From Sphingopyxis sp. (GTDB taxonomy: Bacteria; Pseudomonadota; Alphaproteobacteria; Sphingomonadales; Sphingomonadaceae): a stretch of DNA of 64,000 bases. This document shows positions 15,404 through 35,936 of the stretch, one piece after another. The DNA lies in contig NZ_JAEMQX010000002.1 in the NCBI RefSeq assembly GCF_016463645.1, positions 62,001 to 126,000 of the forward strand, given 5' to 3'. The translations under genes and the position numbers were made by a program. A model generated the notes under the pieces. That model made no database searches and had not been told where the DNA came from. It was given only the letters and a program-made list of their open reading frames with translations. Each line of letters starts with the position of its first letter. The first letter of the stretch is position 1.

Positions 15404-15421
15404 CTGTCACGGCGCTGTCAC
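15404..15421 (-). promoter_or_regulatory. Direct-repeat regulator box of the M20-PepSY-ast operon
   Basis: Minus-strand GTGACAG-CGCCG-TGACAG, both half sites perfect with 11-bp period, followed after exactly 7 nt by GCATAATTT, a good -10 element. It is 102 nt upstream of the M20 start, inside the 132-nt gap after the histidine kinase gene, so the ast operon has its own promoter. Confidence 0.65.
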
Positions 15422-15433
15422 GTTGCAGCAAGG

Positions 15434-16840
15434 TTACGATCGCGCCTCGGAACCCGCCGAAACGGTCGGAAAACGGACGGTGACGCGAAGACCGGGCAAG
15501 ACGCCACGGTCAGCGAGTTCGACCCTTGCGCCGAGGCTGTCGGCGAGCGCCCGAACGATCGCAAGCCCCAGCCCGCTGCCTTCACGCCCCTGATCGGGCG
15601 CCAGCCGTCCAAACCGCTCGAACGCGGTCGCACGCGCATCGGGTGGGATACCGGGACCTTCGTCCTCGATGATCACGATGCCGTCACCCAGCACCGTCAC
15701 CGTCACGATGCCCTTGTCGCGATTGTAACGGATCGCATTATCGATCAGATTGCCGACCAGTTCTCCCGCCAGATCGGCCTGGGAGAGGATGGTGACTTCC
15801 CCTTCGGGCGCCTCGAAATGCAGGTCGATCCCAGTCTTCACGGCATGCGGCGCATGCTCTACGCTCACGGCGCGGGTGATCTCGCCAAGGTCGACTCGCG
15901 CGCGCAGGTCGGGGCCGCCTTCGCGTGCCCCTTCGGCACGCGCGAGCGCAAGAAGCTGGGTCAGGAGACGCTGGAGGCGCCCGGTTGCGGCCTCGATGTC
16001 GGTCACCGACTGCTGCGCCGGACCCGCGGGCAGCTTTGCGGAGCGCAGTGCCGCGACATGCGCGCGCAGGATCGACAGCGGCGTCCGCATCTGGTGCGAC
16101 GCATCCGCAGTGAACCGCCTGATCCCCTGCATAGCGGCATCGAGGCGTCCGAGCAGGCTGTTGAACGCGCCGACGAGCCCTCGTAGCTCGACCGGCACAT
16201 AGTCGAGCGACAACGGCGTAAAATCGGCTTCGCGCCGCGTTCCCATCGAGCTTAGAACGCGCTTGAGCGGCGCCAGGCCCCAGCGCACGGCGAGCGGCAA
16301 CAGCCCCAGCGACACCGCGATCAGCAACACCTCCAGCATGGCGAGCGCGACGAGCATGCGGTCGCGCAAGGCGTGGCGCGCCTCGAGCGTTTCGGCGACT
16401 TCGACGATAACCGGCCGATTGATCCGCGGCACCTTGCGCGCAACCGCGGCGATGCGGATGCGATAATCGCGATAATAGGCATATTGATAGACCATCTCGC
16501 CATCGTCGTCGGGCAGCTCGCTCACCCGCGGAAGATCGGGATAGCCGGTCAACAATTCGCCGTTCGCCCACACGCTGTAATAGACGTTGTCGCGCGCCTC
16601 GTTTTCGAGCATCCCGAGTGCCGACGCCGGCAGATCGAGCGTCACCTCGTCGTTTTCGAGCGCCAGCGTCTCCGCGATCGCGCGCGCCGAAGCCCCGAGC
16701 AGCCGATCATTGACGCCCTCGACGACCTCGTTGATCGTTACCGCCCCCCCGACGCCGAGCAGAACCGCCAGCGCCGCCAAGGGGAAGCCCATCCCCACCA
16801 TCATCCGGCGTGTGATCGAGCTGACGCGCCGGGGCGGCAC
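15434..16840 (-). CDS. Sensor histidine kinase, TctE/QseC-like
   Basis: A 468-residue membrane kinase. TM1 lies at ~12-35. A periplasmic 2CSK_N-type domain contains NDRLLGASARAIAETLAL and the VYYSVWANGELLTGYPDLP signature known from TctE. TM2 is near residue 170 (LVALAMLEVLLIAVSLGLLPLAVRW) and a HAMP segment follows. The H-box is ASHQMRTPLS, with N-box NLIDNAIRYN and G-boxes EDEGPGIP and GSGLGLAIV. The start is a GTG directly abutting the response-regulator stop codon; in-frame ATGs at about residues 13-14 would cut into TM1. TctE-type kinases sense tri- and dicarboxylates, often with a periplasmic binding protein; one is encoded divergently next door. Confidence 0.9.
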   Translation of the reverse strand: MPPRRVSSITRRMMVGMGFPLAALAVLLGVGGAVTINEVVEGVNDRLLGASARAIAETLALENDEVTLDLPASALGMLENEARDNVYYSVWANGELLTGYPDLPRVSELPDDDGEMVYQYAYYRDYRIRIAAVARKVPRINRPVIVEVAETLEARHALRDRMLVALAMLEVLLIAVSLGLLPLAVRWGLAPLKRVLSSMGTRREADFTPLSLDYVPVELRGLVGAFNSLLGRLDAAMQGIRRFTADASHQMRTPLSILRAHVAALRSAKLPAGPAQQSVTDIEAATGRLQRLLTQLLALARAEGAREGGPDLRARVDLGEITRAVSVEHAPHAVKTGIDLHFEAPEGEVTILSQADLAGELVGNLIDNAIRYNRDKGIVTVTVLGDGIVIIEDEGPGIPPDARATAFERFGRLAPDQGREGSGLGLAIVRALADSLGARVELADRGVLPGLRVTVRFPTVSAGSEARS

Positions 16841-17509
16841 TCAATTCTCTTCCATCAGATAGCCAAGGCCGCGCAGCGTCCTGATCGTCGGGCCGTCCGG
16901 CTCGAGTTTCCTGCGCAGCCGGGCTATATAGACTTCGATCGCGTTGGGCGCGACGGGCTCGTCATAGCCGAAGACCTCGGACGCCAGCCGGTCTTTCGAC
17001 ACCACCTGTCCGACGCGCGAGAGCAGCCGTTCGAGCACCACCCATTCGCGGCGACGAAGATCGAGGTCGCGGCCGTCTACGCGCGCAACATGGTGCGAGC
17101 GGTCGAATTCGAGTTTGCCGACGCGGATGACCGGTGCCGGATCGACCTGCGGGCGCCGCAGCAGCGCGCGGATACGCGCCGCCATCTCGCGCGGTTCGAA
17201 AGGCTTCAGCAGATAATCGTCGGCACCCAGATCGAGCCCCCGCACGCGGTCGTCGATCTCGTCGCGCGCGGTCAGGATCAGCACGGGGGCATGACATCCC
17301 CTGGCGCGGAGCGACTTCAGCACGTCGAACCCCGACATGTCGGGAAGGCCAATGTCGAGCGTGATAATCGCATAAGGTTCGTCCGACGCCATCATCAACG
17401 CCGACGCGCCGTCGGGCGCGGGGTCGACCGAATAGCCCTCCGCCGTCAGCGCTGCAACCAGCCCGCGCGAGAGCGCGGCATCGTCTTCGATCAATAATAT
17501 GCGCGCCAT
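16841..17509 (-). CDS. OmpR-family response regulator, TctD-like
   Basis: A 222-residue regulator. The receiver domain has acidic residues near 9-10, the phosphoacceptor at about Asp52 in LDIGLPDMSG, and Lys in LLKPFEP. A C-terminal winged helix follows with NAIEVYIARLRRKLEPDG and the terminal TLRGLGYLM. OmpR-family proteins bind tandem half sites spaced 10-11 bp. One such direct repeat (17521-17538) sits immediately upstream of this gene and matches boxes before nearly all transcription units to 35.4 kb, making this the best candidate regulator. ATG 17509 begins MARILLIEDD; longer in-frame sequence upstream is intergenic. The kinase gene follows with no gap. Confidence 0.92.
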   Translation of the reverse strand: MARILLIEDDAALSRGLVAALTAEGYSVDPAPDGASALMMASDEPYAIITLDIGLPDMSGFDVLKSLRARGCHAPVLILTARDEIDDRVRGLDLGADDYLLKPFEPREMAARIRALLRRPQVDPAPVIRVGKLEFDRSHHVARVDGRDLDLRRREWVVLERLLSRVGQVVSKDRLASEVFGYDEPVAPNAIEVYIARLRRKLEPDGPTIRTLRGLGYLMEEN

Positions 17510-17520
17510 TGCTTCGATCC

Positions 17521-17538
17521 GTGACAGCCGGTTGACAG
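17521..17538 (+). promoter_or_regulatory. Direct-repeat regulator box between tctD-like gene and binding protein
   Basis: Plus-strand GTGACAG-CCGGT-TGACAG, perfect half sites. It points to the substrate-binding protein (54 nt ahead) and lies 11 nt from the response-regulator start codon on the other side. Binding could activate one gene and repress or autoregulate the other. Confidence 0.62.
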
Positions 17539-17592
17539 GTTGACCATGTTTCCCTTGGCCATAAACATAAGCGAAATCGGGGAGAAGGACAG

Positions 17593-18708
17593 GTGGCGCA
17601 TTTTGCGGGGCGGAGGAAGTTTGCGGCCACGCTGCTGCTGGCATTTATGGGCCCGTCGCTGCTTACCTCTGCCGCGAAGCCGCTCAGCGACCCGCCGAAG
17701 GGCTATCCCCGCTCCTATCGCGTGATCATGGATGCCGCGCGCGCCGAACGCACGCTCGTAATCTATTCGACCACCGATCGGCGAGAGGCGGCGGGGCTGA
17801 TCGCCGCGTTCGAAAAGCGCTATCCTTTCGTGCGGGTCGATTACCGCGAAATCACGACGGCGACACTGCATAACCGCGTCATCGCCGAAGCGCGCGCGAA
17901 GCGCCCCGGTGCCGACCTGCTGTGGAGCGCCGCGATGGATTTGCAGACCAAGCTCGTCAACGACGGCTATGCGCAGGCCTATGCCTCGCCCGAAAAGCCG
18001 TACCTGCCGCCCTGGGCCGTGTGGAAGAACGAGGCATGGGGCACGACCGCCGAACCCGTCGTCTTCGCCTATAATCGCAAACTGGTTCCCGCCGCCGACG
18101 TGCCGCGAACCCACGCCGAGCTGACACGCCTGTTGCACGCCAAGGCGCGTTTCTATCGCGGCCGCATCGCGACCTTCGACCCCGCGCGGTCGAGCGCCGG
18201 CTATCTTTTCCTGAGCCAGGATTTGCAGGTCAGCCGCGACACCATTCCGCTGATGGCGGCGCTCGGGCGAACGCGGGTCACGACCTTTCCGACCAGCTCC
18301 GAAATGCTGACACGGCTCGGCGACGGCCGGCTGGCCTTCGTCTATAACATGATCGGTTCCTATGCGCTCGAACGCCAGTCGCACGATGCGAACATCGGCG
18401 TCGTCATGCCGAGCGACTATACGCTGATCATGTCGCGGATCGCGATCATCCCCGATCAGGCGCGACATCCCAATGCCGCGAAGCTGTTCCTCGATTTCAT
18501 GCTGTCGCGCGAGGGGCAGGCACAGCTTTCCTATCGTTACATGACCCCCGTGCGCGCCGACGTCCGCGCCCGGGCCGGCGCCCGTGCGCCCGCCAGCGCG
18601 GCGCGTACCTTGCGCATCGGACCGGCGCTGATTGCCAACCTCGACCAGATGAAACGCCGCCGCATCATGAATCAGTGGCACGCCGCGGTCGGCACCCCCC
18701 GAAAATAG
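17593..18708 (+). CDS. Periplasmic substrate-binding protein (PgtC/iron-binding-like), solitary
   Basis: A 371-residue extracellular solute-binding protein with a signal peptide (RRKFAATLLLAFMGPSLLTSAA). It has the type-2 binding protein lobes LVIYSTTDRREAAGLIAAFEKRYPFV, GADLLWSAAMDLQTKLVNDGYAQAY, and EPVVFAYNRKLVP. No permease or ATPase gene is adjacent. Family precedents are PgtC and TctC/BctC-like proteins that present ligand to a sensor kinase. The divergent TctDE-like system makes a co-sensor role more likely than transport (inference). The start is GTG at 17593 behind GGAGAAGGA. It converges with the first CitMHS transporter 11 nt beyond its stop. Confidence 0.85.
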   Translation: MAHFAGRRKFAATLLLAFMGPSLLTSAAKPLSDPPKGYPRSYRVIMDAARAERTLVIYSTTDRREAAGLIAAFEKRYPFVRVDYREITTATLHNRVIAEARAKRPGADLLWSAAMDLQTKLVNDGYAQAYASPEKPYLPPWAVWKNEAWGTTAEPVVFAYNRKLVPAADVPRTHAELTRLLHAKARFYRGRIATFDPARSSAGYLFLSQDLQVSRDTIPLMAALGRTRVTTFPTSSEMLTRLGDGRLAFVYNMIGSYALERQSHDANIGVVMPSDYTLIMSRIAIIPDQARHPNAAKLFLDFMLSREGQAQLSYRYMTPVRADVRARAGARAPASAARTLRIGPALIANLDQMKRRRIMNQWHAAVGTPRK

Positions 18709-18719
18709 CGTCCGCCGCG

Positions 18720-20039
18720 TCATCCAGCGTGGAGCGGGAAGGTTCCGGTCAGCAGGCATGTCGCCATGAAGACGAAACACGCGCCGACCGCCCAGCGGAA
18801 GATATATTTCTGATGATCGCCAAGCTCGATGCCCGACATGCCGACGAGCAGATAGGTCGAGGCGACGAGCGGGCTGAGCAGGTGGATCTGCTGCCCGACG
18901 AGTGACGCGCGCGCCATTTCCATCGGCGTCACGCCATATTCGGCGCCGGTCCCGGCAAGCACGGGCAGCATCCCGAAATAGAAGGCGTCGTTCGATATCA
19001 GGAAGGTGAAGGGCATCGACAGCAGCGCGGTGATCGGCGCCATATAGGGACCGAGCGCGTCTGGAATGACCGCGACCACCGACCCCGCCATCGCGTCGAC
19101 CATCTTCGTCCCCGACAATATGCCGGTAAAGATGCCCGCCGCGAACACCAGGCTGACCGTCGCCATCGCATTGCCCGCGTGCGCGGCAATGCGGTCCTTC
19201 TGCTGCTGGAGATTGGGGTAATTCACCGCTGCGGCAATCGCAAAGGCGCCCATGAACAGGATGACGAGCGGGATCGAGCCGCCGATCAGCAGACCGAGCA
19301 GCCCAAGCGTCAGCGCGAGATTGAACCAGAATAGCCCTGGCCGGCGGTGCTCCTCGCCATCCATCTGCTCGCGGATCACTTCCTCGCCCGTCGCGTCTTC
19401 ATCGACCGCGTCGGCGGGCAGTGCAGCGAGGCGCTTGCGTTCGCGGCGCCCGAATATCCACGCGACGAACAGCACCCAGATCGCAGTCGTAATCATGGCG
19501 GGGATCAACGACACGAAGAGCTCGCGCGGATCGACGCCGAGCGCGAGCGCGGCGCGCGTCGTCGGGCCGCCCCATGGCACGACGTTCATCACCGCGACCG
19601 ACATCATGATCAGGCACGCCATGATCCGCACGTCCATCTTCATGTGACGATAGAGCGGAAGCAGCGCCGATACGGTGATCATATAGGTCGTGGTGCCGTC
19701 GCCATCGAGCGCGACGATTAGCGTCATCACCGCGGTGCCGATACAGATGCGCATCGGGTCGCCATGAACGATGCGGACGATCGTCTTCACGAGCGGGTCG
19801 AACAGCCCGACGTCGATCATCAGGCCGAAATAGAGGATCGCGAAGAGCAGCATCACGCCGGTCGGTGCGAGGTCGCGGACCCCCGCCAGCATCATCTCGC
19901 CCAGCCCCGCGCCGAAGCCCGCGATCAGGGCAAAGATCGTCGGCACGACGATCAGCGCGATCAGCGCCGACAGCCGCTTCGTCATGATCAACGTCATGAA
20001 GGTCGCGACCATCAAAAATGCCAGAAGTGTCAGCATCAT
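18720..20039 (-). CDS. CitMHS family metal-citrate/proton symporter, copy 1
   Basis: A 439-residue polytopic inner-membrane protein with about 12 hydrophobic segments, matching CitMHS in full length. Signatures include GDPMRICIGTAVMTLIVALDGDGTTTYMITVSALLPLYRHM, the VVPWGGPTTRAALALG loop, and FLISNDAFYFGMLPVLAGTGAEYG. A hydrophilic loop rich in Asp/Glu (AVDEDATGEEVIREQMDGEEH) separates the halves. CitMHS proteins import citrate complexed with divalent metal. A second copy at 26465 is near-identical over long stretches. ATG 20039 or the adjacent ATG 20036 may be used. A consensus direct-repeat box is 68 nt upstream, and the TctDE-like system is the neighbour. Confidence 0.92.
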   Translation of the reverse strand: MMLTLLAFLMVATFMTLIMTKRLSALIALIVVPTIFALIAGFGAGLGEMMLAGVRDLAPTGVMLLFAILYFGLMIDVGLFDPLVKTIVRIVHGDPMRICIGTAVMTLIVALDGDGTTTYMITVSALLPLYRHMKMDVRIMACLIMMSVAVMNVVPWGGPTTRAALALGVDPRELFVSLIPAMITTAIWVLFVAWIFGRRERKRLAALPADAVDEDATGEEVIREQMDGEEHRRPGLFWFNLALTLGLLGLLIGGSIPLVILFMGAFAIAAAVNYPNLQQQKDRIAAHAGNAMATVSLVFAAGIFTGILSGTKMVDAMAGSVVAVIPDALGPYMAPITALLSMPFTFLISNDAFYFGMLPVLAGTGAEYGVTPMEMARASLVGQQIHLLSPLVASTYLLVGMSGIELGDHQKYIFRWAVGACFVFMATCLLTGTFPLHAG

Positions 20040-20107
20040 CCCCGTCTCGATTACAGGTGCCTGCTTCGTCGTGCACCTTGTTTCATGCTCTGGCTAAAAG
20101 GCGATGC

Positions 20108-20125
20108 CTGTCATGCTGCTGTCAC
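20108..20125 (-). promoter_or_regulatory. Direct-repeat regulator box of CitMHS copy 1
   Basis: Minus-strand GTGACAG-CAGCA-TGACAG, perfect half sites, 68 nt from the start codon. An AT-rich CTTTTAGCC follows 7 nt downstream in the place where copy 2 has GCATAGCC. Box-to-start distance matches copy 2 to within 1 nt. Confidence 0.65.
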
Positions 20126-20172
20126 GCAGCGACAAGTCTTTTTGCCAAGCAATTTCAGAGATGAATCCAACG

Positions 20173-20202
20173 AAAAACCCCCGACGCTTGCCGCGCCGGG
20201 GG
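20173..20202 (-). terminator. Rho-independent terminator after the serine hydrolase gene
   Basis: On the minus strand a GC-rich 10-bp stem with one mismatch (20178-20187 with 20193-20202) and a short loop is followed by five T residues (20173-20177). It is 48 nt past the serine hydrolase stop, separating that gene from CitMHS copy 1. Confidence 0.7.
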
Positions 20203-20250
20203 GAAGGATATCGGGTGCTGGTGTCAGGTCAGCACCATCGAATGGCGCAA

Positions 20251-21828
20251 TCAGGCGATCCGGCCGGTCAGAACGGGGAGGCGGGTCTCCTTCGAGTTCA
20301 CGTTGACGCTGCGATCGACCGCAACGCCATCGGCCGCGAAGGTGCAGACCAGCGTGTCGCGGAACGCCGTTTCGACGAACTGCCAAGTCATTTCGAGCGT
20401 GTCCGGCGCGGTCCAGCGCGCGCCCGCGACGACGCGCTGGCTCGGCGGACGATATTCATGGTGCAGCCGGTTGCCGGTCATACTGGTGTCCTGTTCCAGA
20501 TAGTCGGCAAAACCCGCTGTGACGACATGCTCGCCATGCGCGTCGAACATCCGGTAGGTACAGCGGTCGCCCGCGAAATCGAACGACAGCCATTCGACCC
20601 CCTGGTCGTTCGCCTCGACCCTCAGCCGCTTGCCGTTGACACCCGCCGGCGGCGCAACATGGCTCGGCTTCAGCGGCGGCAACAGCCGCAGACCGGCGGT
20701 CTTGCGCTGCAACACCACCGCCTCGGGATCGGCGGGCAGCTTGTCGGCGACGAACGCTGCCGGAAAATGCTTCCATATAAGGGGCTTGATCTTCTTGCTG
20801 CCGTCGATCGCCGAAAACAGCGCCAGCACGGCATTGTGCTCGGGAAAGACAATCGACATCTGGCTGAACAGCCCGAGCGCGAGATAGGCCTTTCCCGGCC
20901 CCATCCACCATTGGTAGCCATAGGCGCCGTCGTCGTCGCCCGGCGCCTGCTCGGTCGTCGCTTCGCGCACCCATTTTTCGGAGAGGATGCGGTGGCCATT
21001 CCATGTCCCGCCGCTCGCGTGCACCGCACCGAGCTTGATCGACGCCGCGGTGTTCCACGTCAGTCCGTTACCGCCAGGGCTGACCCCGCCGGGGCTCGTG
21101 TCCCAATGCCAGCGGTCGATCCCCATCGGTTCGAAAAAGCGCGGTTTCAGATAATCGGCCATCGCCTCGCCCGTCGTCTTGCCGACGATCGCCGAGAGCA
21201 TGAAGCTCGCTGCGCTGGTGTACTGGAAATGCCCGCCTGGCTGATGCACGACGGGGATCTTGAAGAATTCGGCCGCCCAAGGCGTGTCGATCGGCCGCCA
21301 TGCGGAACCCGAGGTCTCCTTGTCATGACCGCACTGCATCGTCAGCAGGTTGCGCACCGTCATCGCGCGCATATTCTCGCTCGCGTCGGCGGGCACATAT
21401 TCGGGGAAGAAGGAGACGACCTTGTCGTCGAAGCCGAAGCGCCCCTCGTCGATCGCGAGCCCCGCAGCGACCGCGGTCACGCTCTTGGTCAACGAATGGG
21501 TGATGTGGATACGCCCGGGCGAATAGGGCCACCACCAGCCTTCTGCGACAACGTGGCGATTGCGCATCAGCATGAAGGAATGGAGTTCGAGCCCCGCGCC
21601 TTCGACATCGGCAAGGAACGCCAAAATCTGTTCGGAGGATACGCCCTGCGCCTCGGGCGTGCTGCGCAGCAGGCCGTCCTTGTACATATCGCGCTGGACC
21701 GGACCGACGCCGGGCGGTGCCGCCGTGACGCGACCGAGGCGTTCGACGCAGCCGCCGAGCATCACAAAGGCGCTGGCGCCCATAACGAGCTGTCCGGCCC
21801 GCCGCCGCGTTACATTCATGTCTTTCAC
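20251..21828 (-). CDS. Exported serine hydrolase, class C beta-lactamase/esterase family
   Basis: A 525-residue penicillin-binding-protein-like serine hydrolase. The N-terminus TRRRAGQLVMGASAFVMLGGC has a twin-arginine-like start and a lipobox Cys at about 27, so a periplasmic lipoprotein is likely. The SxxK motif is SLTK at 112-115 and a Tyr at about 203 (FQYTS) stands for the YxN motif. Substrate is unknown; relatives include beta-lactamase-like esterases and D-amino-peptidases. The C-terminal ~150 residues form an extra beta-rich domain. A box (21875-21892) lies 46 nt upstream and a terminator follows, so it is a monocistronic unit. ATG 21819 is an alternative start. Confidence 0.85.
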   Translation of the reverse strand: MKDMNVTRRRAGQLVMGASAFVMLGGCVERLGRVTAAPPGVGPVQRDMYKDGLLRSTPEAQGVSSEQILAFLADVEGAGLELHSFMLMRNRHVVAEGWWWPYSPGRIHITHSLTKSVTAVAAGLAIDEGRFGFDDKVVSFFPEYVPADASENMRAMTVRNLLTMQCGHDKETSGSAWRPIDTPWAAEFFKIPVVHQPGGHFQYTSAASFMLSAIVGKTTGEAMADYLKPRFFEPMGIDRWHWDTSPGGVSPGGNGLTWNTAASIKLGAVHASGGTWNGHRILSEKWVREATTEQAPGDDDGAYGYQWWMGPGKAYLALGLFSQMSIVFPEHNAVLALFSAIDGSKKIKPLIWKHFPAAFVADKLPADPEAVVLQRKTAGLRLLPPLKPSHVAPPAGVNGKRLRVEANDQGVEWLSFDFAGDRCTYRMFDAHGEHVVTAGFADYLEQDTSMTGNRLHHEYRPPSQRVVAGARWTAPDTLEMTWQFVETAFRDTLVCTFAADGVAVDRSVNVNSKETRLPVLTGRIA

Positions 21829-21874
21829 GGCGTCACTCCCATTTGCCGACCCGCCGTCATCGTGCGGTCCGCGC

Positions 21875-21892
21875 CTTTCACCACGCTGTCAC
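21875..21892 (-). promoter_or_regulatory. Direct-repeat regulator box of the serine hydrolase gene
   Basis: Minus-strand GTGACAG-CGTGG-TGAAAG, one mismatch in the second half site, 46 nt from the start codon, pointing toward it. Confidence 0.55.
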
Positions 21893-21926
21893 AGGTACGG
21901 CGCGGAGCAAAGTCGATGCTGGCGCG

Positions 21927-21944
21927 ACGACAGGATCGTGACAG
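21927..21944 (+). promoter_or_regulatory. Direct-repeat regulator box of the S9-like hydrolase gene
   Basis: Plus-strand ACGACAG-GATCG-TGACAG, 75 nt before the ATG at 22020. Together with 21875-21892 it gives each of the two divergent hydrolase genes its own correctly oriented box within one 191-nt spacer. Confidence 0.5.
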
Positions 21945-22019
21945 CATGCGCCCGGCATGAAAAACTAGGTGCGAGGCGTCACCGGGGAATAGGTCTGATA
22001 ACAGACCAAGGGGAGAGAA

Positions 22020-23087
22020 ATGATGCGGGCAAAAAGATATTTGCGCATGGCTGCGGCACCGGCCGCCCTGTTGATGCTCGTCTCTGTGGCGCCCGCCACG
22101 GCGGCGCCCAAAAAAGAAGCGCCACGCGAGGGCGATCTCAGCACCCATATCAACCTCGATGCGCGCGACGCCGAGACAAAGCTCGAGATCATCCAGCACG
22201 AGCTGTTCGCCGCTCAGCAGCAGTCGGTGCGCATCGAATTCATGCTGCGCTACGGCAACCGCGTCGAAATGGACTTCATCGACTATCCCTCGGGAAGCGA
22301 CCTGATCCCGGGGTATGTGTTCCGCGCGAAAGATGGTGCCGGCCATATTCCGGCCGGCCGCAAACCCGCGATCGTCCTCGTTCATGGCGGATTCCACGAA
22401 CGGCTCAATTCGCACTGGTTCCGCATGGTCGTCGAACTCGCCGAGAAGGGCTATCTTGTCATTTTCCCCGAATATCGCGGCAGCCGCGGCTACGGGGAAA
22501 ATCATTACCAGAACGACTATGGCGTCACCGACACGGCCGACGTGCTCGCCGCCGCCGCTTATCTCTCGCGCCGCCCCGACGTCGATCCCGAACGGCTCGC
22601 GATCATCGGCGAAAGCCGCGGCGGCATGGTGACGCTGCTCGCGATCGAACAGGAGGCGAAAAGATTCAAGGCCGCGGTCGACATTGTCGGACTGACGGAT
22701 TTCGTCGCCTATATGGGCTACAAGCCCGAATATCGCCGGCAGGAAGTCGCACGCCAGAGCCCGAGCCTCGGTGGCAAATTGCCCAACGAGAATCTCGCCG
22801 CCTATATGGCGATTTCGCCGATCAACGCGGTCGACAAGATCGAGACGCCGCTCCTCGTACTTGCCACGACAGGCGACAAGATCGCGCCCCTCACGCTCCA
22901 CACCGGGCGCCTCCTCGACGCGCTGAAGGCGCGCGACAAGGTGCACGAAGCAAAAATCTACGACAATGCGCCAGGCGGCCACGTCTTCATGCACGGCGAT
23001 CAGCCCGAGCGCGACGATGCGATGGCCCGGATCTTCGCCTGGCTCGAGCGCTTCATGGGCGCCCCGGCCCCGGCCCCGGCGCAATAG
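22020..23087 (+). CDS. Exported alpha/beta hydrolase, prolyl-oligopeptidase (S9)-like
   Basis: A 355-residue secreted hydrolase: signal peptide to about residue 28 (LLMLVSVAPATAAP), then a region of unclear fold, then a peptidase S9 catalytic domain. HGGF is the oxyanion hole, YRGSRGYGENHY resembles S9 members, the nucleophile Ser is in IIGESRGGM (~198), the Asp is in TTGDKIAP and the His in PGGHVF. AAGGGGAG precedes the ATG closely. It is divergent from the serine hydrolase and convergent with the TonB receptor at 23198. Likely a periplasmic peptidase or esterase. Confidence 0.85.
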   Translation: MMRAKRYLRMAAAPAALLMLVSVAPATAAPKKEAPREGDLSTHINLDARDAETKLEIIQHELFAAQQQSVRIEFMLRYGNRVEMDFIDYPSGSDLIPGYVFRAKDGAGHIPAGRKPAIVLVHGGFHERLNSHWFRMVVELAEKGYLVIFPEYRGSRGYGENHYQNDYGVTDTADVLAAAAYLSRRPDVDPERLAIIGESRGGMVTLLAIEQEAKRFKAAVDIVGLTDFVAYMGYKPEYRRQEVARQSPSLGGKLPNENLAAYMAISPINAVDKIETPLLVLATTGDKIAPLTLHTGRLLDALKARDKVHEAKIYDNAPGGHVFMHGDQPERDDAMARIFAWLERFMGAPAPAPAQ

Positions 23088-23110
23088 AAGCGCCGGCAAA
23101 TTTCACAGAA

Positions 23111-23139
23111 AATGGCCACCGCATGCAGCGGTGGCCATT
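23111..23139. terminator. Hairpin terminator between convergent genes
   Basis: A perfect 12-bp stem (23111-23122 with 23128-23139) and 5-nt loop. On the minus strand it is followed by TTTTC, fitting termination of the TonB receptor transcript; it may also end the plus-strand hydrolase transcript, though no T run follows there. Confidence 0.65.
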
Positions 23140-27868: not shown

Positions 27869-27890
27869 GGTGTGAAAGGGCGCTCGGGCG

Positions 27891-29014: not shown

Positions 29015-29020
29015 GACTGG

Positions 29021-29046
29021 AGCTCCCGGGCCTCGGCCCGGGAGCT
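29021..29046. terminator. Hairpin between convergent genes at 29014/29056
   Basis: A perfect 12-bp GC-rich inverted repeat (29021-29032 and 29035-29046) in the 41-nt gap between the beta-propeller gene and the convergent hydrolase. No T run on either side, so it may act as a bidirectional stop or mRNA end stabiliser. Confidence 0.5.
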
Positions 29047-29055
29047 GCTCGTCAC

Positions 29056-30702
29056 TCAGGGAAGAACCGTCGGCTTGGTCGAGGGCTCCCAGACATCCGA
29101 GCTGGTTGCGACCAGTTCCTTCATGTCGGTCCAGGGCCGTCCGCCCGCGATGCTCTTCTCGCCGCGGATGACGCCTGTCGCGAAGGCGACCATGCGCTCG
29201 CGAACCCGATTCTGTTCGACCTCGGGCCAGACTTCATACGGATGCGGCGCACGCACGACGACCAGTTCCTTCGGCCCATCGACCCGCCGATAACTTTCGA
29301 CGGTGCCCTGGAGCGACGCCGCATAATCCCACAAGCCGCGCGCGAAGAACGCCGCAGGCCATTTGTCGACGCCCCCCAGGATTGCCGAGCTCGGAAAGAA
29401 GACGAGATTATTCTCGACCGCATTGCCGCCGATGAACATCGGTCGGTCGCGTCCCAGTCCCCGCTCCTCATCCTCTTCGCTCGGCCTATCCATCACGAAG
29501 CCGGGACCGCTCGTGAATTCGGCCATCAGGAGCGCACCCTTGATGTTCCTGTCGCCAACCGCGGCGCTGCACCGGATCTCGGGAAGGTCATAGGTGCAAT
29601 TCTTGTCGAAGTTCATCGTCATCGCCCAGCCGCTCGCCATGGTACCGCGCGAATTGCCGAACAGGAGGACCGGGAGCGCAGCTGCCGAACCGCGCAGCGT
29701 CGATGCGGCAGCGCTGCCGCGCTGCTCGCGGCCGGCGGGCGACAGGATGCGAAGGCCTTCGCCGCTGCGAAGGCTCGCGACCATCGCCAATATGTCGCGG
29801 CCCTGCTGCAGCGTGTTGGTATCGACATAGCCCGTCGAGATGCCGACGCCGCGCCGGTCGTAGAGCAGCACGTCGAAGCCCGCGACCTGGAAGGTCCGCG
29901 CAAGCTCACGCCACATCTGCTGGCCGGTGCCGCCGCTTCGCTCGCTCGGAAAGCTGTTGATCTTCGTCTCGCCGTCTTCCTTGATGCGGTAGAGCCGGTC
30001 GTCGGGATGCGTGATCGCCGCGATGCGGCCGCCGCCGCCCGGGGTCATCACGATCAGCGCGCGGCGCTTGCCCCCCTTCCCGTCGTCGACGCCGGAACCG
30101 CGCACATACCAGCCGCGAATCCTGACATCGCCCTCCATCTTGTGGTGGATCCGTTCGTGCGGATCGCGCGGCGCCTTGAACTCGACCGTGTAGGCCTGTC
30201 CGTCGAGCGCGGCAAATGCCTCGTTCCAGGGCGCCGCGGCAAAGAATGCCGGCCGGCGCACCCGGCCGAGGTCGATATCGCCGACTTCGTCCTGCGGCAA
30301 TTTCCCGAGGAGCCGGATTTGTTCGGGATTGGTGTTGCGATATTCCTTGTTGGGCGGGCGCCGTGCCTGGATTTGCTTGCCCACCCGCTCGCGGCATTTC
30401 TCTTCGAGCTTGCAATCGGCCCATTTCGCCCGCAGCCGCTCGTCGCTGAACTCGTCGACATAGAAATCACCCACATAGTTCGCGGGCGGCTTCGCCTTGA
30501 CGGTCGAAAAGGGAATGCAGGTGCGCGGACCGGCCGCGGTCGGGAGAATATAGCCCGTCATCTCGCGGTCGCGATCATATCCGACGCGCGCTTCGCATTC
30601 GGCGGCCGGCTCGGGGATGGCGGGCGCATCGATCTGCGCGCCGGCGCTCAGCGGCAGCAGCAACATCGCCCCCGTTGCCATCCATTGAATCGGTCCTCGC
30701 AT
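29056..30702 (-). CDS. Exported large alpha/beta hydrolase of unknown substrate
   Basis: A 548-residue secreted protein: signal peptide WMATGAMLLLPLSAGAQ (~7-23), an N-terminal ~170-residue Cys-containing region (Cys36, 62, 97 and 103), then an alpha/beta-hydrolase core. Visible are VMTPGGGGR as oxyanion region, YDRRGVGIS, and the nucleophile in FGNSRGTM at about Ser351; a later APHPYEVWPEVEQNR His is a possible triad member. It is unusually long for the fold. A perfect box (30821-30838) points to it from 118 nt upstream. A peptidase, esterase or thioesterase role cannot be decided from sequence. Confidence 0.72.
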   Translation of the reverse strand: MRGPIQWMATGAMLLLPLSAGAQIDAPAIPEPAAECEARVGYDRDREMTGYILPTAAGPRTCIPFSTVKAKPPANYVGDFYVDEFSDERLRAKWADCKLEEKCRERVGKQIQARRPPNKEYRNTNPEQIRLLGKLPQDEVGDIDLGRVRRPAFFAAAPWNEAFAALDGQAYTVEFKAPRDPHERIHHKMEGDVRIRGWYVRGSGVDDGKGGKRRALIVMTPGGGGRIAAITHPDDRLYRIKEDGETKINSFPSERSGGTGQQMWRELARTFQVAGFDVLLYDRRGVGISTGYVDTNTLQQGRDILAMVASLRSGEGLRILSPAGREQRGSAAASTLRGSAAALPVLLFGNSRGTMASGWAMTMNFDKNCTYDLPEIRCSAAVGDRNIKGALLMAEFTSGPGFVMDRPSEEDEERGLGRDRPMFIGGNAVENNLVFFPSSAILGGVDKWPAAFFARGLWDYAASLQGTVESYRRVDGPKELVVVRAPHPYEVWPEVEQNRVRERMVAFATGVIRGEKSIAGGRPWTDMKELVATSSDVWEPSTKPTVLP

Positions 30703-30820
30703 CGCTTCCCTCTCCCTTTCTTCCGTATCGGCGCGGGCGCGCCTTCAAGCACGCCTTTTCGACGAACCGCCAGGCGGCCTCCCTCTGGTCGATCCTTTGC
30801 TTTCAACCTGCAATGGCTGC

Positions 30821-30838
30821 CTGTCACCATGCTGTCAC
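30821..30838 (-). promoter_or_regulatory. Direct-repeat regulator box upstream of the hydrolase at 30702
   Basis: Minus-strand GTGACAG-CATGG-TGACAG, both half sites perfect. It points to the hydrolase gene (118 nt) and lies 93 nt from the divergent PepSY-response regulator-kinase operon, which it could also affect. Confidence 0.6.
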
Positions 30839-30931
30839 AGGACAGCGGGGACGCCGGAACAGGAAAATTGTCAGCTTCGCATCAGCAAGGGACTCGTAAA
30901 TTGGCTCCATCAATGGATAAGGACCATCCCC

Positions 30932-31291
30932 ATGCGTAAAATTTCCGCCATCGCGCTTGCCGCGACCGTCAGCTTAGGAATTGGCTTCGCGGCCGGCCCG
31001 GCGATTGTCCATAGTTTCGAGACCAATGTCGCGAAGGCGAGCAAGGCCGAACGCAAACGCGCCGAGCAGGAGGCCATCCGGACCGCCGTCCAGCGCGGCG
31101 AGCTCCTGCCGCTTCCCCGGGTTCTGGCTATCGCCCAGTCCAAGGTGCGCGGCGAGGTCGTCAAGGTCGAACTCGAAAATGAGCCGGGCTTCATCAAATA
31201 TGAGGTGAAGATATTGACCCCCTCGGGCCGCGTTCGCGAAGTCGAAATCAATGCTCGGACCGGAGCCCTGATCAAGATCGAGGATGATTGA
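30932..31291 (+). CDS. Small exported PepSY-domain protein
   Basis: A 119-residue protein: signal peptide (KISAIALAATVSLGIGFAAG), a charged linker rich in Lys/Glu/Arg, then one PepSY domain (AVQRGELLPLPRVLAIAQSKVRGEVVKVELENEPGFIKYEVKILTPSGRVREVEINARTGALIKIEDD). It is the first gene of an operon with an OmpR-type regulator and kinase; such PepSY-TCS trios are common and the periplasmic protein is thought to modulate the sensor. The start MRKISAI has AAGGA about 8 nt upstream. The stop shares one base with the next ATG (TGATG). Confidence 0.87.
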   Translation: MRKISAIALAATVSLGIGFAAGPAIVHSFETNVAKASKAERKRAEQEAIRTAVQRGELLPLPRVLAIAQSKVRGEVVKVELENEPGFIKYEVKILTPSGRVREVEINARTGALIKIEDD

Positions 31292-31956
31292 TGCGGGTAT
31301 TGCTGGTCGAGGACGATCCCGATCTCGCTGAGGACGTTGCCCGCGCGCTGACCGCCGCGGGCTTCGTCGTTGATCGATCCGGAAACGGCGAGGATGCCTG
31401 GTTTCAGGGGGATGTCGAGGATTATGCCCTTGTCATTCTCGATCTCGGCCTGCCCCGCCTCGACGGACTCACCATTCTCAAGCGCTGGCGAAGCGCCGGA
31501 CGGACCATGCCGGTCCTCATCCTGACGGCGCGCGGCGACTGGACGGAGAAGGTCGAAGGCATCGAGGCCGGGGCCGACGATTATATGGCGAAGCCATTTG
31601 CCGTGGGCGAGCTGATCGCCCGGGCCCGCGCGCTTGTCCGCCGCGCCGCGGGTCATGCGACTGCGACGCTCAAGGTCGGCGAACTCGCGATCGATACCGC
31701 CCGGATGACGGCGTCGATCGGCGGACGGCAGACGCAACTCTCGCAGCTCGAATACCGCCTCCTGAATTTCTTGGGGCATGAACAGGACCGTGTCGTTTCC
31801 GCCGGCGAAATCGCCGAACATCTTTACGGGGCAAGCGACGGGCAGGATACAAATGCCGTGGAGGCGATCGTCACCCGCCTCCGGCGCAAGCTTGGTAGCC
31901 GCGCGATCGAAACCCGGCGCGGGCTCGGCTATCTGCTTACCGGGCAGATCGAGTGA
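31291..31956 (+). CDS. OmpR-family response regulator, PhoP/QseB-like
   Basis: A 221-residue regulator. The receiver has acidic residues 8-10, the phospho-acceptor Asp51 in LDLGLPRLDG, TARGDWTEKVEGIEAGADDY and Lys in MAKPFAVGEL. A winged helix follows with QLSQLEYRLLNFLGHEQ, NAVEAIVTRLRRKLG and TRRGLGYLL. It is translated in coupling with the PepSY gene (TGATG) and the kinase (GTGA). The TTG one codon earlier is not needed as a start. Genes controlled are not evident; it is the second candidate to bind the direct-repeat boxes of this region. Confidence 0.92.
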   Translation: MRVLLVEDDPDLAEDVARALTAAGFVVDRSGNGEDAWFQGDVEDYALVILDLGLPRLDGLTILKRWRSAGRTMPVLILTARGDWTEKVEGIEAGADDYMAKPFAVGELIARARALVRRAAGHATATLKVGELAIDTARMTASIGGRQTQLSQLEYRLLNFLGHEQDRVVSAGEIAEHLYGASDGQDTNAVEAIVTRLRRKLGSRAIETRRGLGYLLTGQIE

Positions 31957-33290
31957 AGCGAAGCTCGCTCCGCCTGCGGCTCCTTCTGGGCGCTGCCATC
32001 GCGGTATTCCTCGCCTTGGCGCTCGCCTGGGGCGGTATTTCGCTGCTCATTCACCAGCATATCGAAACACGCGAAGCCGCGCAGCTTCGCAGTGTCGCGG
32101 AACGGGTTGTCGCGGGCCTGACGCTCGACGCCGCGGGCAAGCCGATGATCGATCCCGCGCCCTCCGATGCGGCTTTTCAGGCCATCGCCGGCGGAACCTA
32201 TTGGCAGGCTATCGGTCCCGGCGGATCGGCGCAGTCACCCTCCCTCTGGGACCAGAGCCTGCCCGAGGCGGCAGCCAGCGGCGATGACTGGACAACCGCG
32301 ACGGTTCCCGGTCCTTTCGGCAAGCAGCTCACGATGGTAAGCAGGCGGATCCAACCGGACCGGCGCGCACGCGACGTCATCGTGCGCGTTGCCGCCGACG
32401 ACAGCGAAATGCGCGACGCGCTTCGCGAATTCGATGCCGAACTCGCGCTCTCTCTCGCTTTTCTCTGGGTGGTTCTGTCGCTTGCCGCCTATTTCCAGGT
32501 GAGCCTGGGCCTGCGTCCGCTCGATCGGCTGCGGCGCGAGCTCGATCGGCTGCGGCGCAGCCCGGCTGCCCGTCTTTCGGATAATCATCCCGCCGAAATT
32601 CTGCCGCTCACCGAGGCGATCAACGCGATGGCGGCTGCCCGCGAAAGCGATCTCGCCCGTGCACGCCGCCGCGCGGCCGATCTTGCCCACAGCCTGAAGA
32701 CCCCCTTGGCCGTGGTCGCGGCGCAGAGCCGCCGGGCTCGCGATGAAGGAGCGACCAGCGCGGCCGAGGGCATAGACCGCGCTGTTACGGCGGTCGGCGC
32801 CGCGCTCGAGGCCGAACTCGCCCGTTCGCGCGCCGCCGCCGCCCGCGGGAGCGGCGGCGAGTCGAACCCGAGCGAGGTCGCCGACGGCTTGATTTCGGTG
32901 ATCGAGCGGACCGAGAAGGGTGAGCAGATCGCCTTTTCGGCCGATCTTGCTTCCAATCTGCGACTGGCGGTTGACAGCTCCGATCTCGCCGAAATGCTGG
33001 GCGCGTTGATCGAAAATGCGTCGCGTCATGCGCGGCGGCACGTTGCCGTCTCGGGTGATCTGGAGGACGGCGCCATCGTGCTCCGGGTCGAAGATGACGG
33101 TCCCGGAATGGAAGATGCGGCAATAACGCGCGCGATGGAACGCGGCGTACGGATCGACGAAACGGGCGGCGGCCACGGCTTTGGGCTCGCGATCGTCCGC
33201 GATCTCGCCGAGGCGACCGAGGGCGAGTTTCGCCTCGGTCGCTCGAAGCTCGGCGGGCTGTCCGCCGAGTTGCGCTGGCAATCCGACTGA
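31953..33290 (+). CDS. Sensor histidine kinase, PhoQ/QseC-like
   Basis: A 445-residue membrane kinase starting with GTG that overlaps the regulator stop by 4 nt. TM1 is at ~8-30 (LLLGAAIAVFLALALAWGGISLLI), followed by a ~130-residue periplasmic domain and TM2 near 165-185 (LALSLAFLWVVLSLAAYFQV), then HAMP. The H-box DLAHSLKTPLAVVAAQ is of the PhoQ type, with N-box ALIENASRHA and G-boxes VEDDGPGMED and GGGHGFGLAIVRDLAE. It probably senses a metal, peptide or envelope cue with the PepSY partner. It is convergent with a TonB receptor 6 nt away. Confidence 0.9.
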   Translation: MKRSSLRLRLLLGAAIAVFLALALAWGGISLLIHQHIETREAAQLRSVAERVVAGLTLDAAGKPMIDPAPSDAAFQAIAGGTYWQAIGPGGSAQSPSLWDQSLPEAAASGDDWTTATVPGPFGKQLTMVSRRIQPDRRARDVIVRVAADDSEMRDALREFDAELALSLAFLWVVLSLAAYFQVSLGLRPLDRLRRELDRLRRSPAARLSDNHPAEILPLTEAINAMAAARESDLARARRRAADLAHSLKTPLAVVAAQSRRARDEGATSAAEGIDRAVTAVGAALEAELARSRAAAARGSGGESNPSEVADGLISVIERTEKGEQIAFSADLASNLRLAVDSSDLAEMLGALIENASRHARRHVAVSGDLEDGAIVLRVEDDGPGMEDAAITRAMERGVRIDETGGGHGFGLAIVRDLAEATEGEFRLGRSKLGGLSAELRWQSD

Positions 33291-33295: not shown

Positions 33296-35335
33296 TCAAA
33301 CGCCAAAGTTGCGCTGGATGGTCAGCCCGACATAGGGGCCGCTTCGCAGCGTGCGGATTTCGCTGTAGCGAAACGGACTGGCACCACGCACGCCGGTGTA
33401 GATTTCCCGGGTCCGCGTCGCCGGGCTGTCGGTAAGATTTCGGCCGAAGAGCCGGAAGGTCCAGTTCGCGTCCGGCTTGTATTCGACAAAGAGATCGAGC
33501 CGCGCGCCGAGGCGGTCGGCCTCGATCTCGCGAACCTTGTAGCTCGTCTCGGTTTCGGCAAGCACGAGCGTGCCGCCCCAGCGTAGCTTCCATGCGGGAA
33601 TGTCGTGGGTGAGCGCGATCTTGCCTTCGACGGGTCCTTCGCCCGAGATGCGGCGGCGCTCGCCCGTCGACGGATCGGTCGCGCGGCTCCGCCGCGCCAC
33701 GATATCGCCCGTCAGGATCACACCCTTGAGCCCCAGATCATCGAGAGGCCATTTGATCGCCGCCTCGATCTCGTCCTGGCGCGCCGATCCGATGTTCCCG
33801 ACCGCGTCATAGATTTCCCCGTTCGACACGATCGGAAGCTGATCGACGAGATCCGATATCCATTCGCGGCGCGCGGAAAAGACGAGCGATCCCGATCCGA
33901 AGCGATGCTCGTAGGTCGCCTCGGCACGCCATCGGCTGTCGGGCTCGAGATCCTGGTTACCGGCGCTGATCGTTCCACTGTTGAGCGACGCCGCACCGAC
34001 GAAATCCTCGAAATCGAGCTGCCCCACCTCACGCTCGATGAGGAAGCGAAGCTGGTCGCTCTTCGAAAGCGACCAATTCAGCCGCGCGCGCGGCTTCCAG
34101 AAGGCAAGCGATTTTGAGAGGTCGGTGTCGCCCGACTGCGCGAGCCTCGATGTCTCGAAGCGCAGGCCGGTCTCGGCGGTAAGACGGCTGTTCAGCGTCC
34201 ACGTCGCGTTGGTGAAGAACTCGGCGCGATGTTCCTCGACGCGGACGTTCGAATTGGGAAGAGGGACGGCCACGTCATCCTCGAAGAGCAGATTCGAGCT
34301 GTCGAGAATATTGATGGCTCCCTCGGCCCCGACCTCGAGCGCGAGCGAGCCAGTCCGGTGACGGAATGCCGCGCGCAGGATGCTCTCACTGCTGTCCGAA
34401 CTCTCGTCCGAACGGTCGCTTCCCGATGCCGTCGTCTCGCGGTCGATGCCGAGCTTCGCCACCGATCGGTAATTGCCGATGAGCTCGAAGTCGCTCGCAG
34501 CGCCGAGCGGCCGCTCGTATCGAAGCCCTGCCTCATAGGTGCGCGTATGGTTGCGCTCGCTGCCGCGGATGGTTTCCGGCGCCGGGACGACGATGTCATA
34601 GCCGATATCGGCGAACATCCGCTTGTCCTGGATGAGTCCATTGAGGCGGAGCGTACCTCCCAGAAGGGGTGTGCGATAGGCGATCGTGCCTTCGAGGACG
34701 TCGGTGCCCTCGGGCTGAAAATAGCTTGAGAGCCGGATCGGGGTTCCATCTTCGGCGAAGCGGTTTCGCGTCCCGAAGCCATGTTCATCGTCGATCTCGC
34801 GATAGGCGGCACCAAATAGCGTGATCACCCGGCCGTTCCGGTCGAGCTCGATCTGGGCCGACCCGCGCGGCGCCCGATATCCATGGCGATAGACCGCATA
34901 TTCGCCCTCGATGCGCCCTCCGATTTTGCCGCCCGAAGCGAGAATCACATTCGCGAGCAGAGCATATCCCTGCATGTCGTAGCCTGCCCTCCCAGCTCGG
35001 ATGAGCTCGATGCGCGCGACACGCGCTGCCGGAATGCGCTTGAGGAGCGTCTCTAGCGTCTCGGCCTTGCCCGCCGGCCGCTGGCCGTCGATCAGGATGT
35101 TTCCTGCTGCCCCTGAATAGCCCCGTACTTCCGCGTCGCCTTCGATCAGACGGAAGCCCGGAAGCTGGGTGACCATGTCATAGGCGTTCGTGGGTTGCAC
35201 CCGTGCAAAAAAGTCGCTCGCGTAGACGGTTGCACTCTGGCCGGTGTCTTCAGCAGCACTGGCGGAGGACACAGGATAAGCGGCCGGTAGCAGGATGGCC
35301 GCGCCGAGCAAAAACCGGTGATTGCGCAATTTCAT
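33296..35335 (-). CDS. TonB-dependent receptor with short plug
   Basis: A 679-residue outer-membrane receptor: signal peptide to SASAAE (~28), a plug (DMVTQLPGFRLIEGDAEVRGYSGAAGNILIDGQRPAGKAETLETLLKRIPAARVARIELIRAGRAGYDMQGYALLANVIL), then a ~560-residue barrel ending VGLTIQRNFGV. The NILIDGQRPAGK/IPAARVARIELIRAG plug is that of sphingomonad and caulobacter receptors of unknown ligand, with no obvious siderophore signature. It converges with the PepSY-PhoPQ-like operon and has a degenerate box 76 nt upstream (35412-35429). Confidence 0.9.
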   Translation of the reverse strand: MKLRNHRFLLGAAILLPAAYPVSSASAAEDTGQSATVYASDFFARVQPTNAYDMVTQLPGFRLIEGDAEVRGYSGAAGNILIDGQRPAGKAETLETLLKRIPAARVARIELIRAGRAGYDMQGYALLANVILASGGKIGGRIEGEYAVYRHGYRAPRGSAQIELDRNGRVITLFGAAYREIDDEHGFGTRNRFAEDGTPIRLSSYFQPEGTDVLEGTIAYRTPLLGGTLRLNGLIQDKRMFADIGYDIVVPAPETIRGSERNHTRTYEAGLRYERPLGAASDFELIGNYRSVAKLGIDRETTASGSDRSDESSDSSESILRAAFRHRTGSLALEVGAEGAINILDSSNLLFEDDVAVPLPNSNVRVEEHRAEFFTNATWTLNSRLTAETGLRFETSRLAQSGDTDLSKSLAFWKPRARLNWSLSKSDQLRFLIEREVGQLDFEDFVGAASLNSGTISAGNQDLEPDSRWRAEATYEHRFGSGSLVFSARREWISDLVDQLPIVSNGEIYDAVGNIGSARQDEIEAAIKWPLDDLGLKGVILTGDIVARRSRATDPSTGERRRISGEGPVEGKIALTHDIPAWKLRWGGTLVLAETETSYKVREIEADRLGARLDLFVEYKPDANWTFRLFGRNLTDSPATRTREIYTGVRGASPFRYSEIRTLRSGPYVGLTIQRNFGV

Positions 35336-35936
35336 TCCCCTGACTTGCGGACAAGATGTCCGGATCGGGGCGCACCTTGCATTCGGCTAGCTGACGGGAG
35401 GACGTTGGCGCTCGTCAGTTTCCTGTCAGCGAAACCGTGCACGCGTTACGGGCGCGGCCATGGCAACCGGCAGTCGTACCAGACTGATGAAGCGTCCCGC
35501 CGGAGAACGAGATGTTCGCACGCGGCATTAATCTCGGCCTTGATCGCCACGGGACGCGTCAACGCCGGTATTCGCCACGCGCGGCCGAGACGCGGTCGAT
35601 CGGCGAATCACGAATGCAGTCGACACTATCGAGCTTTGCGGATCGAAATCGAGAGCGTGCGAACGCACTATAGACCGCGACACCCGTCAGCACTGATATC
35701 CGGTCGCCCTGGGCCCAGCAAAATCATTCCGTTTCGGATTTCATGGGCCGGGCTCCGGCTCGCCCATGCTGATCGCCGGCGAGGCTATCGCGGCTACATC
35801 TGCGCCGCACAGGTTTGTTCTCGCTGGGCGAGACGCGCGCTCGCTTCGGCGGCGCAACAGGATGCTGCGCGCCGTAAGTGCAACCGATGGAGTTCATGTC
35901 GGTTCAACCCGGGAGGGTATCGAGAAGGACGATCCG
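35336..35936. other. 600-nt intergenic region without a supported gene
   Basis: Between the TonB receptor start and the VOC gene. It contains a degenerate regulator box near the receptor. The plus-strand open frame that spans it has Arg-rich, low-complexity shadow composition, no Shine-Dalgarno and overlaps both neighbours. It may hold the promoters of both divergent genes and remnants of a lost gene. Confidence 0.5.
35412..35429 (-). promoter_or_regulatory. Degenerate direct-repeat box upstream of the TonB receptor
   Basis: Minus-strand CTGACAG-GAAAC-TGACGA: first half site perfect, second with two changes, 11-bp period kept, 76 nt before the start codon, same orientation as the other boxes. 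Confidence 0.4.

Follow-up and report, generated by a model that had tools for sequence, protein, structure and literature searches.

Which regulator reads a short direct repeat that recurs in front of citrate symporter, exported hydrolase and TonB-dependent receptor genes in one part of a Sphingopyxis genome? The repeat, an 18-bp box of the form GTGACAG-N5-TGACAG, lies in a stretch of 64,000 nt (Sphingopyxis sp. GCF_016463645.1, contig NZ_JAEMQX010000002.1, positions 62,001-126,000), which we call the window and whose own numbering is used for all coordinates. A sequence-only reading of this DNA had listed ten such boxes and inferred a reader of the OmpR/PhoP family, leaving the regulator unnamed. 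An OmpR/PhoB-family regulator very probably does read nine of the ten, and a candidate is encoded inside the cluster itself, at 15434-17509, as response regulator 1 (RR1) with histidine kinase 1 (HK1). We propose, with a probability of roughly 0.85, that these nine boxes, and probably an additional one at 438, are operators of RR1, a TctD-like activator that would govern one local scavenging programme. The tenth box fits the operator of a second regulator, RR2.

All ten 18-mers were found where they had been reported. Five are perfect, with no mismatch to GTGACAGN5TGACAG, as had been claimed (15404-15421, 20108-20125, 26400-26417 and 30821-30838 on the minus strand, 17521-17538 on the plus strand); one mismatch is present at 21875-21892 and 27851-27868 (both minus), two at 21927-21944 and 27891-27908 (both plus), and three at 35412-35429. 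Because shuffled sequence yields a mean of 8.1 matches with up to three mismatches (standard deviation 2.86, maximum 16, 100 shuffles; the window itself holds 20), a loose match by itself says little. Strict matches were counted across the genome assembly (4.55 Mb, 270 contigs, 94.8% complete) by pattern search, not by matrix scan. Perfect TGACAGN5TGACAG occurs five times, each time inside the cluster. Up to one mismatch gives 19 matches, nine of them within 15404-30838 (binomial tail 5e-18 under uniform placement), as compared with three for the backwards-pattern control. The extended pattern TGAMAGN5TGAMAGN10TA, again with up to one mismatch, has nine matches genome-wide, eight of which lie in the window between 438 and 30838, and its control has one. 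This extended pattern includes the RR1-type box at 438-455 (plus strand; GCGACAGCGCGATGAAAG), which is absent from the earlier list, has one mismatch and scores 14.0 bits on the RR1 matrix. The boxes are real, confined locally in this genome and far above chance; the expectation that few equally good matches would lie elsewhere in the genome was borne out. The assigned gene starts of all ten boxes follow at 46-118 nt, the range given before, with 69 nt for the second CitMHS gene.

RR1 (16841-17509, minus strand) is an OmpR-type response regulator with Response_reg and Trans_reg_C domains (Pfam), and its best NCBIfam model is TctD, at 207 bits. Since this is below the curated cut-off of 337 bits, we call it TctD-like and not TctD; no match in 120 sampled genomes of the phylum reached that cut-off. 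HK1 (15434-16840, minus strand) contains the periplasmic sensor domain 2CSK_N (PF08521, 111 bits, cut-off 23), as do the kinases of three related loci (L088, L103 and L274), and we take this domain to be tied to TctE. The pair adjoins tricarboxylate uptake genes, namely two for CitMHS symporters, with TIGR00784 and PF03600 both above cut-off. None of TctA, TctB and TctC was found among the 30 window proteins scanned.

The assignment to RR1 rests mainly on co-occurrence. Among 199 genomes of the family, a set that includes those from which the motif was derived, 22 carry an RR1 homologue at E <= 1e-50. We took 23 homologue loci, excluding the window's own; several are shortened at contig ends. 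Allowing up to one mismatch, we counted 28 boxes at spacing 5, as against 1, 1, 0, 0, 3, 0 and 3 at spacings 2, 3, 4, 6, 7, 8 and 9. They occur in 17 of the 23 loci, comprising all 16 with at least 49% identity to RR1 and one at 47%, so the conservation beside orthologous regulators that the sequence-only reading had proposed as a check is seen in these 17. The exact extended motif has 22 matches in 16 of the 199 genomes (backwards control, 7). Genomes with an RR1 homologue contain it in 12 of 22 cases and those without in 4 of 177 (Fisher 1.7e-10), and for 15 of the 22 matches an RR1 homologue is no more than 10 kb away.

Loci outside this set were covered as well. A plasmid set was taken after the motif had been fixed and consists of 12 of the first 13 RR1 matches among 318 records; record H12 was excluded as being of the same species and the same identity as H11, and some sphingomonads in the set may be close to genomes already used. 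In these 12 loci, exact TGAMAG boxes number nine at spacing 5 (in 8 of the 12) and zero at seven other spacings, and TA follows at 11 or 12 nt in six of the nine. The Methylobacterium and Variovorax plasmid loci have one-mismatch sites only. Exact TGAMAG-N5-TGAMAG also lies within 400 nt upstream of 7 of 90 more distant regulators, the matches listed in a profile scan with the RR1 alignment being mostly distant ones, and is found at none of the seven other spacings. The relaxation to TGAMAG was set after some distant loci had been seen, and a shifted control half-site gave one exact match at spacing 5. These distant boxes include Pseudomonas (twice), Kushneria, a Hyphomicrobiales bacterium and Mesorhizobium. 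Two of the divergent operons were checked, and they encode TctC (L102) and TctA (L112), so in both of the two cases checked the box lies upstream of a regulator beside TctC or TctA.

In a recurrent arrangement, seen in at least 7 of the 23 family loci, the box separates RR1-HK1 from a divergent group made up of a solute-binding protein gene, a gene of some 500 codons and CitMHS; in the one locus scanned for it, the middle gene is a Porin_O_P porin. At four loci of other family members (L079, L085, L086 and L087) RR1-type boxes lie before genes for amidohydrolases, a PQQ dehydrogenase, M20 peptidases, a PGA_cap protein, an SDF symporter and TonB receptors, which suggests several local regulators, each serving a scavenging cluster of its own. 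In two genomes of one genus (G029:C34:237112 and G112:C1:1325430) a common promoter motif, TGAAAG-N5-TGAAAG, was observed away from the RR1 locus and is a possible non-local member of the regulon.

The boxes have a fixed position relative to a promoter element and a fixed direction. One of the 28 family boxes, 9 kb from its regulator in L086, was left out of the counts that follow. For the remaining 27, TA lies 11 nt after the box in 18 and 12 nt after it in five, with none at offsets 7-10 and 13-21; 23 thus have TA at 11-12 nt after the box, as opposed to two on the opposite side. Box 438 fits the 11-nt offset, as does 27851, and 15404 and 26400 are each followed by N10 and TA (CATAAT at 15404). 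This fixed distance matches the need of a class II activator, for which the box substitutes for a -35 element, with the -10 about 10 bp further on. Gene starts around the 27 boxes of 17 loci, from our own picking of open reading frames, lie on the TGACAG side only in 13 cases, on both sides in 13, on neither in one and on the opposite side only in none. Within the window, boxes behind a single gene (15404, 20108 and 26400) read TGACAG towards that gene, and so do both members of the divergent pairs 21875/21927 and 27851/27891 towards theirs; 17521 and 30821 lie between divergent genes and are ambiguous taken singly. The constant orientation claimed for the unambiguous sites therefore holds in the window and in the related loci alike.

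That the boxes are a dispersed repeat or functionless chance matches could be argued from the shortness of the motif and from the loose matches that shuffled sequence produces. The preference for a single spacing (28 versus 0-3 in the 23 loci, 9 versus 0 in the plasmid loci), the fixed distance to TA, flanks that differ from box to box and the co-occurrence with one regulator type across classes make this account extremely improbable.

Polarity also bears on whether the boxes are Pho boxes read by PhoB. The Pho consensus fits the reverse complement of the box, and CTGTCAN5CTGTCAC matches the Pho box layout. In the part of PMC4513871 available to us, the Pho box is given as two (T)GTCAT boxes with a 5-nt spacer. 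A true PhoB is also present in this genome (339 bits, cut-off 296). Against these points, the window boxes follow the occurrence of RR1 and point TGACAG at their genes, which encode symporters, hydrolases and receptors; at no unambiguous window box do CTGTCA half-sites read towards the target gene. A search of this genome with TIGR00975 gave no PstS, and no exact Pho repeat was found on the 8.8-kb contig that carries phoB, so the Pho-type sites considered here are those of other family genomes. Sites of the Pho kind may explain boxes elsewhere. Eight of 30 perfect boxes from other places in the family (one of the 30, L053, is itself an RR1 locus) were annotated, and they lie near genes for four PBP_like_2 proteins, which we read as PstS, two Porin_O_P porins, one transglycosylase and one MgtC; Porin_O_P is found in RR1 operons as well. 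Some of the perfect boxes that lie elsewhere in the family are probably Pho sites. Their polarity, opposite to that of RR1 sites, is suggestive only, as the eight loci had been chosen for having a gene that starts on that side (CTGTCA). Gene content, polarity and the co-occurrence with RR1 together make PhoB an unlikely reader of the window boxes.

A second regulator within the cluster accounts for the tenth box. RR2 (31288-31956) is part of a two-component operon on the plus strand (30932-33290; domain scan) that encodes a PepSY protein, RR2 and HK2 (31953-33290). Its 12 orthologue loci (L191-L202, 59-70% identity) all have an exact YGTCAG-N5-YGTCAG upstream of the regulator, a motif read from these same loci without a spacing control. 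TA follows 12 nt downstream in eight of the 12 and 13 nt downstream in one more, and the short gene before RR2 encodes a PepSY protein in nine of the ten loci scanned. The half-sites of the RR2 and RR1 operators differ by one central base. The box at 35412, when read on the other strand (plus, half-sites CGTCAG-N5-TGTCAG at 35413-35429), is an exact RR2 pattern and scores 21.2 on the RR2 matrix and 4.3 on the RR1 matrix, so its earlier inclusion in the common set could not be upheld. RR2's own site in the window would be TGTCAG-N5-CATCAG at 30869-30885 (plus strand, before PepSY-RR2-HK2; 19-mer at 30868, RR2 matrix 16.4), which has one mismatch to the motif; apart from 35412, the other window boxes do not fit it. 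Together this is consistent with 35412 and 30869 belonging to RR2. TonB-dependent receptor 2 (33296-35335, minus strand; domain scan) lies between that operon and box 35412. Since a homologue of this receptor is the divergent neighbour of RR2 in 4 of the 12 related loci, what is left in the window may be one half of a divergent layout of older date.

Could RR2 read all ten boxes? It lies within the cluster, 30821 and 35412 flank its operon, 27891 scores slightly better on its matrix, and one orthologue locus (L194) has a perfect TGACAG repeat just before RR2, though that site, on the other strand, is an exact RR2 box. Its orthologues' own motif is a different one, in 12 of 12 loci, and eight of the ten window boxes score 18-25 on the RR1 matrix and 7-12 on the RR2 matrix, the best RR1 score in the window being that of 30821 (25.0). 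On the matrix scores we hold it very unlikely that RR2 reads the whole set, which leaves it as the explanation of 35412. A further box was observed at 6262-6279 (TGTCAG-N5-TGACAG), just before an isocitrate/isopropylmalate-type dehydrogenase gene; it is intermediate between the two operator types, scores 11.2 on the RR1 and 15.9 on the RR2 matrix and has no TA at 11-12 nt, and we assign it to neither regulator.

Several observations weigh against RR1 as the reader and activator. Besides falling short of the curated TctD model, RR1 has nine boxes in the window of which only five have TA at 11 or 12 nt. Box 27891 is ambiguous by score (RR1 matrix 11.9, RR2 matrix 13.5), and its RR1 score is below that of a chance site within the gene of TonB receptor 2 (12.7, at 33426); we keep it as a weaker RR1-type box because the TGAMAG rule fits and because it pairs with 27851 between divergent genes. 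None of six loci whose RR1 homologue has 44-46% identity contains a box. An RR1 homologue of 62% identity in Azospirillum oryzae has no box at its plasmid locus, and Azospirillum sp. B510 has only a weak, one-mismatch site. With the strict TGACAG motif, 80 of the 90 distant loci showed no preference for spacing 5, with no exact match and eight one-mismatch matches there versus 3-11 at other spacings. By our count, about 102 copies of the perfect box are spread over 79 of the 199 genomes, and just 13 of these copies have an RR1 homologue at a distance of up to 14 kb; as most lie away from RR1, the perfect box alone is unspecific and a poor marker. Finally, the action of TctD-TctE on opdH is described, in the portion of PMC6403454 known to us, as derepression and not as simple activation. 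Because of this report, the perfect boxes away from RR1 and the selected Pho-type loci, we slightly lowered our confidence in RR1 and slightly raised that in PhoB.

The genes that RR1 would control cover about 30 kb. Next to RR1, beyond the perfect box at 17521, is an exported solute-binding protein of the SBP_bac_8 type (17593-18708, plus strand; Pfam), with the solved relatives 3c9h (E 5e-67) and 7f6e (E 9e-60) in the PDB. It is followed by CitMHS citrate symporter 1 (18720-20039, minus; TIGR00784 592 bits, cut-off 260) behind box 20108, and by an exported beta-lactamase-fold serine hydrolase (20251-21828, minus; PF00144) and an exported S9/alpha-beta hydrolase (22020-23087, plus; PF00326) on either side of the pair 21875/21927. 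Box 26400 precedes an exported protein of 262 amino acids without a Pfam match (25519-26307, minus) and, downstream of it, a TonB-dependent siderophore-type receptor (23198-25393, minus; TIGR01783 248.8 bits, cut-off 223.5). CitMHS symporter 2 (26465-27781, minus; PF03600 above cut-off), whose start was set by likeness to CitMHS 1, and an exported protein earlier called a beta-propeller, which has no Pfam match (27962-29014, plus), flank the pair 27851/27891, and an exported alpha/beta hydrolase with a weak match (29056-30702, minus; PF00561 20.4 bits, below the cut-off of 25.8) lies behind box 30821. No ABC permease was found among the proteins scanned between 13871 and 35335. In the list of open reading frames, one at 61567-62685 resembles an ABC transporter ATPase; it lies a long way from the gene of the binding protein.

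On the other side of HK1, box 15404 precedes a predicted operon M20-PepSY_TM-ast (9100-15301, minus strand; domain and family matches), which contains an exported M20 peptidase (13871-15301), PepSY_TM (12750-13874), AOST/AstA (within 11719-12933; 362 bits, cut-off 284), an AstC-like transaminase (10512-11711) and AstD (within 9100-10551; 658 bits, cut-off 579). Family scans place an aconitase and the isocitrate/isopropylmalate-type dehydrogenase further upstream in the window. The predicted target of box 438 is an M20 family hydrolase of the PRK07338 type (478-1731, plus; Pfam, NCBIfam 524 bits, cut-off 357); the box ends 22 nt before its start at 478. Since transcription is predicted to begin some 20-25 nt beyond the end of a box, a transcript from this promoter would be leaderless or nearly so. 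On the far side of the RR2 box, a third two-component pair (36860-38883; LytTR-type regulator and His_kinase-type kinase) adjoins the gene of a large TonB receptor (38954-41818).

The single two-component regulon of the sequence-only reading thus holds in part. One regulon would indeed join receptors and exported hydrolases to the CitMHS symporters and the M20-PepSY-ast operon. There are, however, two two-component systems with look-alike 11-bp repeats, the second of which fits box 35412, and the regulon is local in this genome and probably reaches upstream to 438.

We suggest the following model. HK1 probably senses a periplasmic tricarboxylate, citrate or metal-citrate, perhaps through the exported solute-binding protein, which is its possible sensing partner. 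Citrate is our candidate ligand because of the CitMHS genes, the TctDE family and the solved relatives 3c9h and 7f6e, the latter presumably a metal-citrate-binding protein. HK1 would phosphorylate RR1, and an RR1 dimer would bind head-to-tail on the 11-bp repeat TGAMAG-N5-TGAMAG, which would stand in for the -35 element, with the -10 element beginning some 10 bp beyond it. Because of this geometry of box and promoter we favour activation over repression, and RR1 is most likely a class II-type activator of the gene to which TGAMAG points. Its targets would be both CitMHS symporters, the binding protein, the siderophore-type TonB receptor with its exported partner, the exported hydrolases and M20-PepSY-ast. 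As a separate observation, the genes at 478-15301 and 22020-30702 include a siderophore-type receptor, PepSY_TM, M20 peptidases, an arginine/ornithine succinyltransferase, an aconitase and CitMHS, a cluster that would suit the breakdown of a citrate-ornithine type of conjugate; such conjugates are staphyloferrin-like.

A bolder idea, which we offer as speculation and consider doubtful as a whole, is that TctD-type regulators form a mirror-polarity branch of the PhoB family. Their half-site would essentially be that of Pho, reversed relative to the promoter yet at a fixed 10-11 bp from the -10 element, so that a flipped tandem dimer contacts RNA polymerase, and in this cluster RR1 and RR2 would have mirror half-sites (TGACAG and TGTCAG) side by side at a similar distance from -10. 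The local RR1 programme would free and import citrate from metal-citrate or citrate-bearing conjugates.

Under the proposal that RR1 reads the boxes, the rule TGAMAG-N5-TGAMAG-N10/11-TA beside a TctD-like regulator predicts target promoters from sequence in several classes of Proteobacteria. Through it, exported hydrolases and TonB receptors whose substrate is not evident gain a suggested role in scavenging that responds to tricarboxylates, and two operator families that look alike, one central base per half-site apart, can be distinguished. Polarity, when set against that of Pho-type sites, is relevant to the way in which activators of the PhoB family engage RNA polymerase, and it could help account for the antagonism of PhoB and TctD described in the part of PMC4513871 seen here. 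TctD and its Pseudomonas motif have been published; new here are the explicit box-promoter rule, its reach across Proteobacteria, the polarity and the way in which the set has expanded locally to take in hydrolases and TonB receptors. The open-access literature searched contained no paper that deals with this box in sphingomonads, which is weak evidence of absence.

Among the closest described systems, TctD-TctE of Pseudomonas aeruginosa likewise has an OmpR-family regulator, which acts on its own gene and on a tricarboxylate uptake operon. According to the parts of PMC4513871 available to us, TctD regulates opdH-tctCBA as well as its own gene, expression of opdH is lower in a tctD mutant, and TctD counteracts PhoB at shared promoters; a TctD motif logo for Pseudomonas is published there. 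P. aeruginosa has a TctABC transporter and the OpdH porin, whereas the window has CitMHS, a solute-binding protein, TonB receptors and exported hydrolases. In Xanthomonas a citrate transporter gene is the target, as we propose for the window, and citH is of the CitMHS type. Positive regulation of citH by TctDE is known to us second-hand (PMC5507510), and the text at hand, in contrast to what we describe, gives no multi-promoter cluster or box rule. In Bordetella, citrate signalling through the kinase of BctDE needs the solute-binding protein BctC (PMC5812351, seen in part); BctC is homologous to TctC and has a transporter of its own, whereas the window protein belongs to SBP_bac_8. PhoB and the Pho box share the 11-bp direct repeat and the OmpR/PhoB family, and differ in that CTGTCA points at the gene in the PstS-type loci annotated here and TGACAG does so in the window. 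A close likeness is on the Sphingomonas parapaucimobilis plasmid NZ_CP155750, where regulator and kinase are divergent from a substrate-binding protein, a porin and CitMHS, with an alpha/beta hydrolase next, a TonB receptor annotated for siderophore transport and an exact box with TA at 11 nt; it has one box in a 14.7-kb stretch, however, as against about ten in the window.

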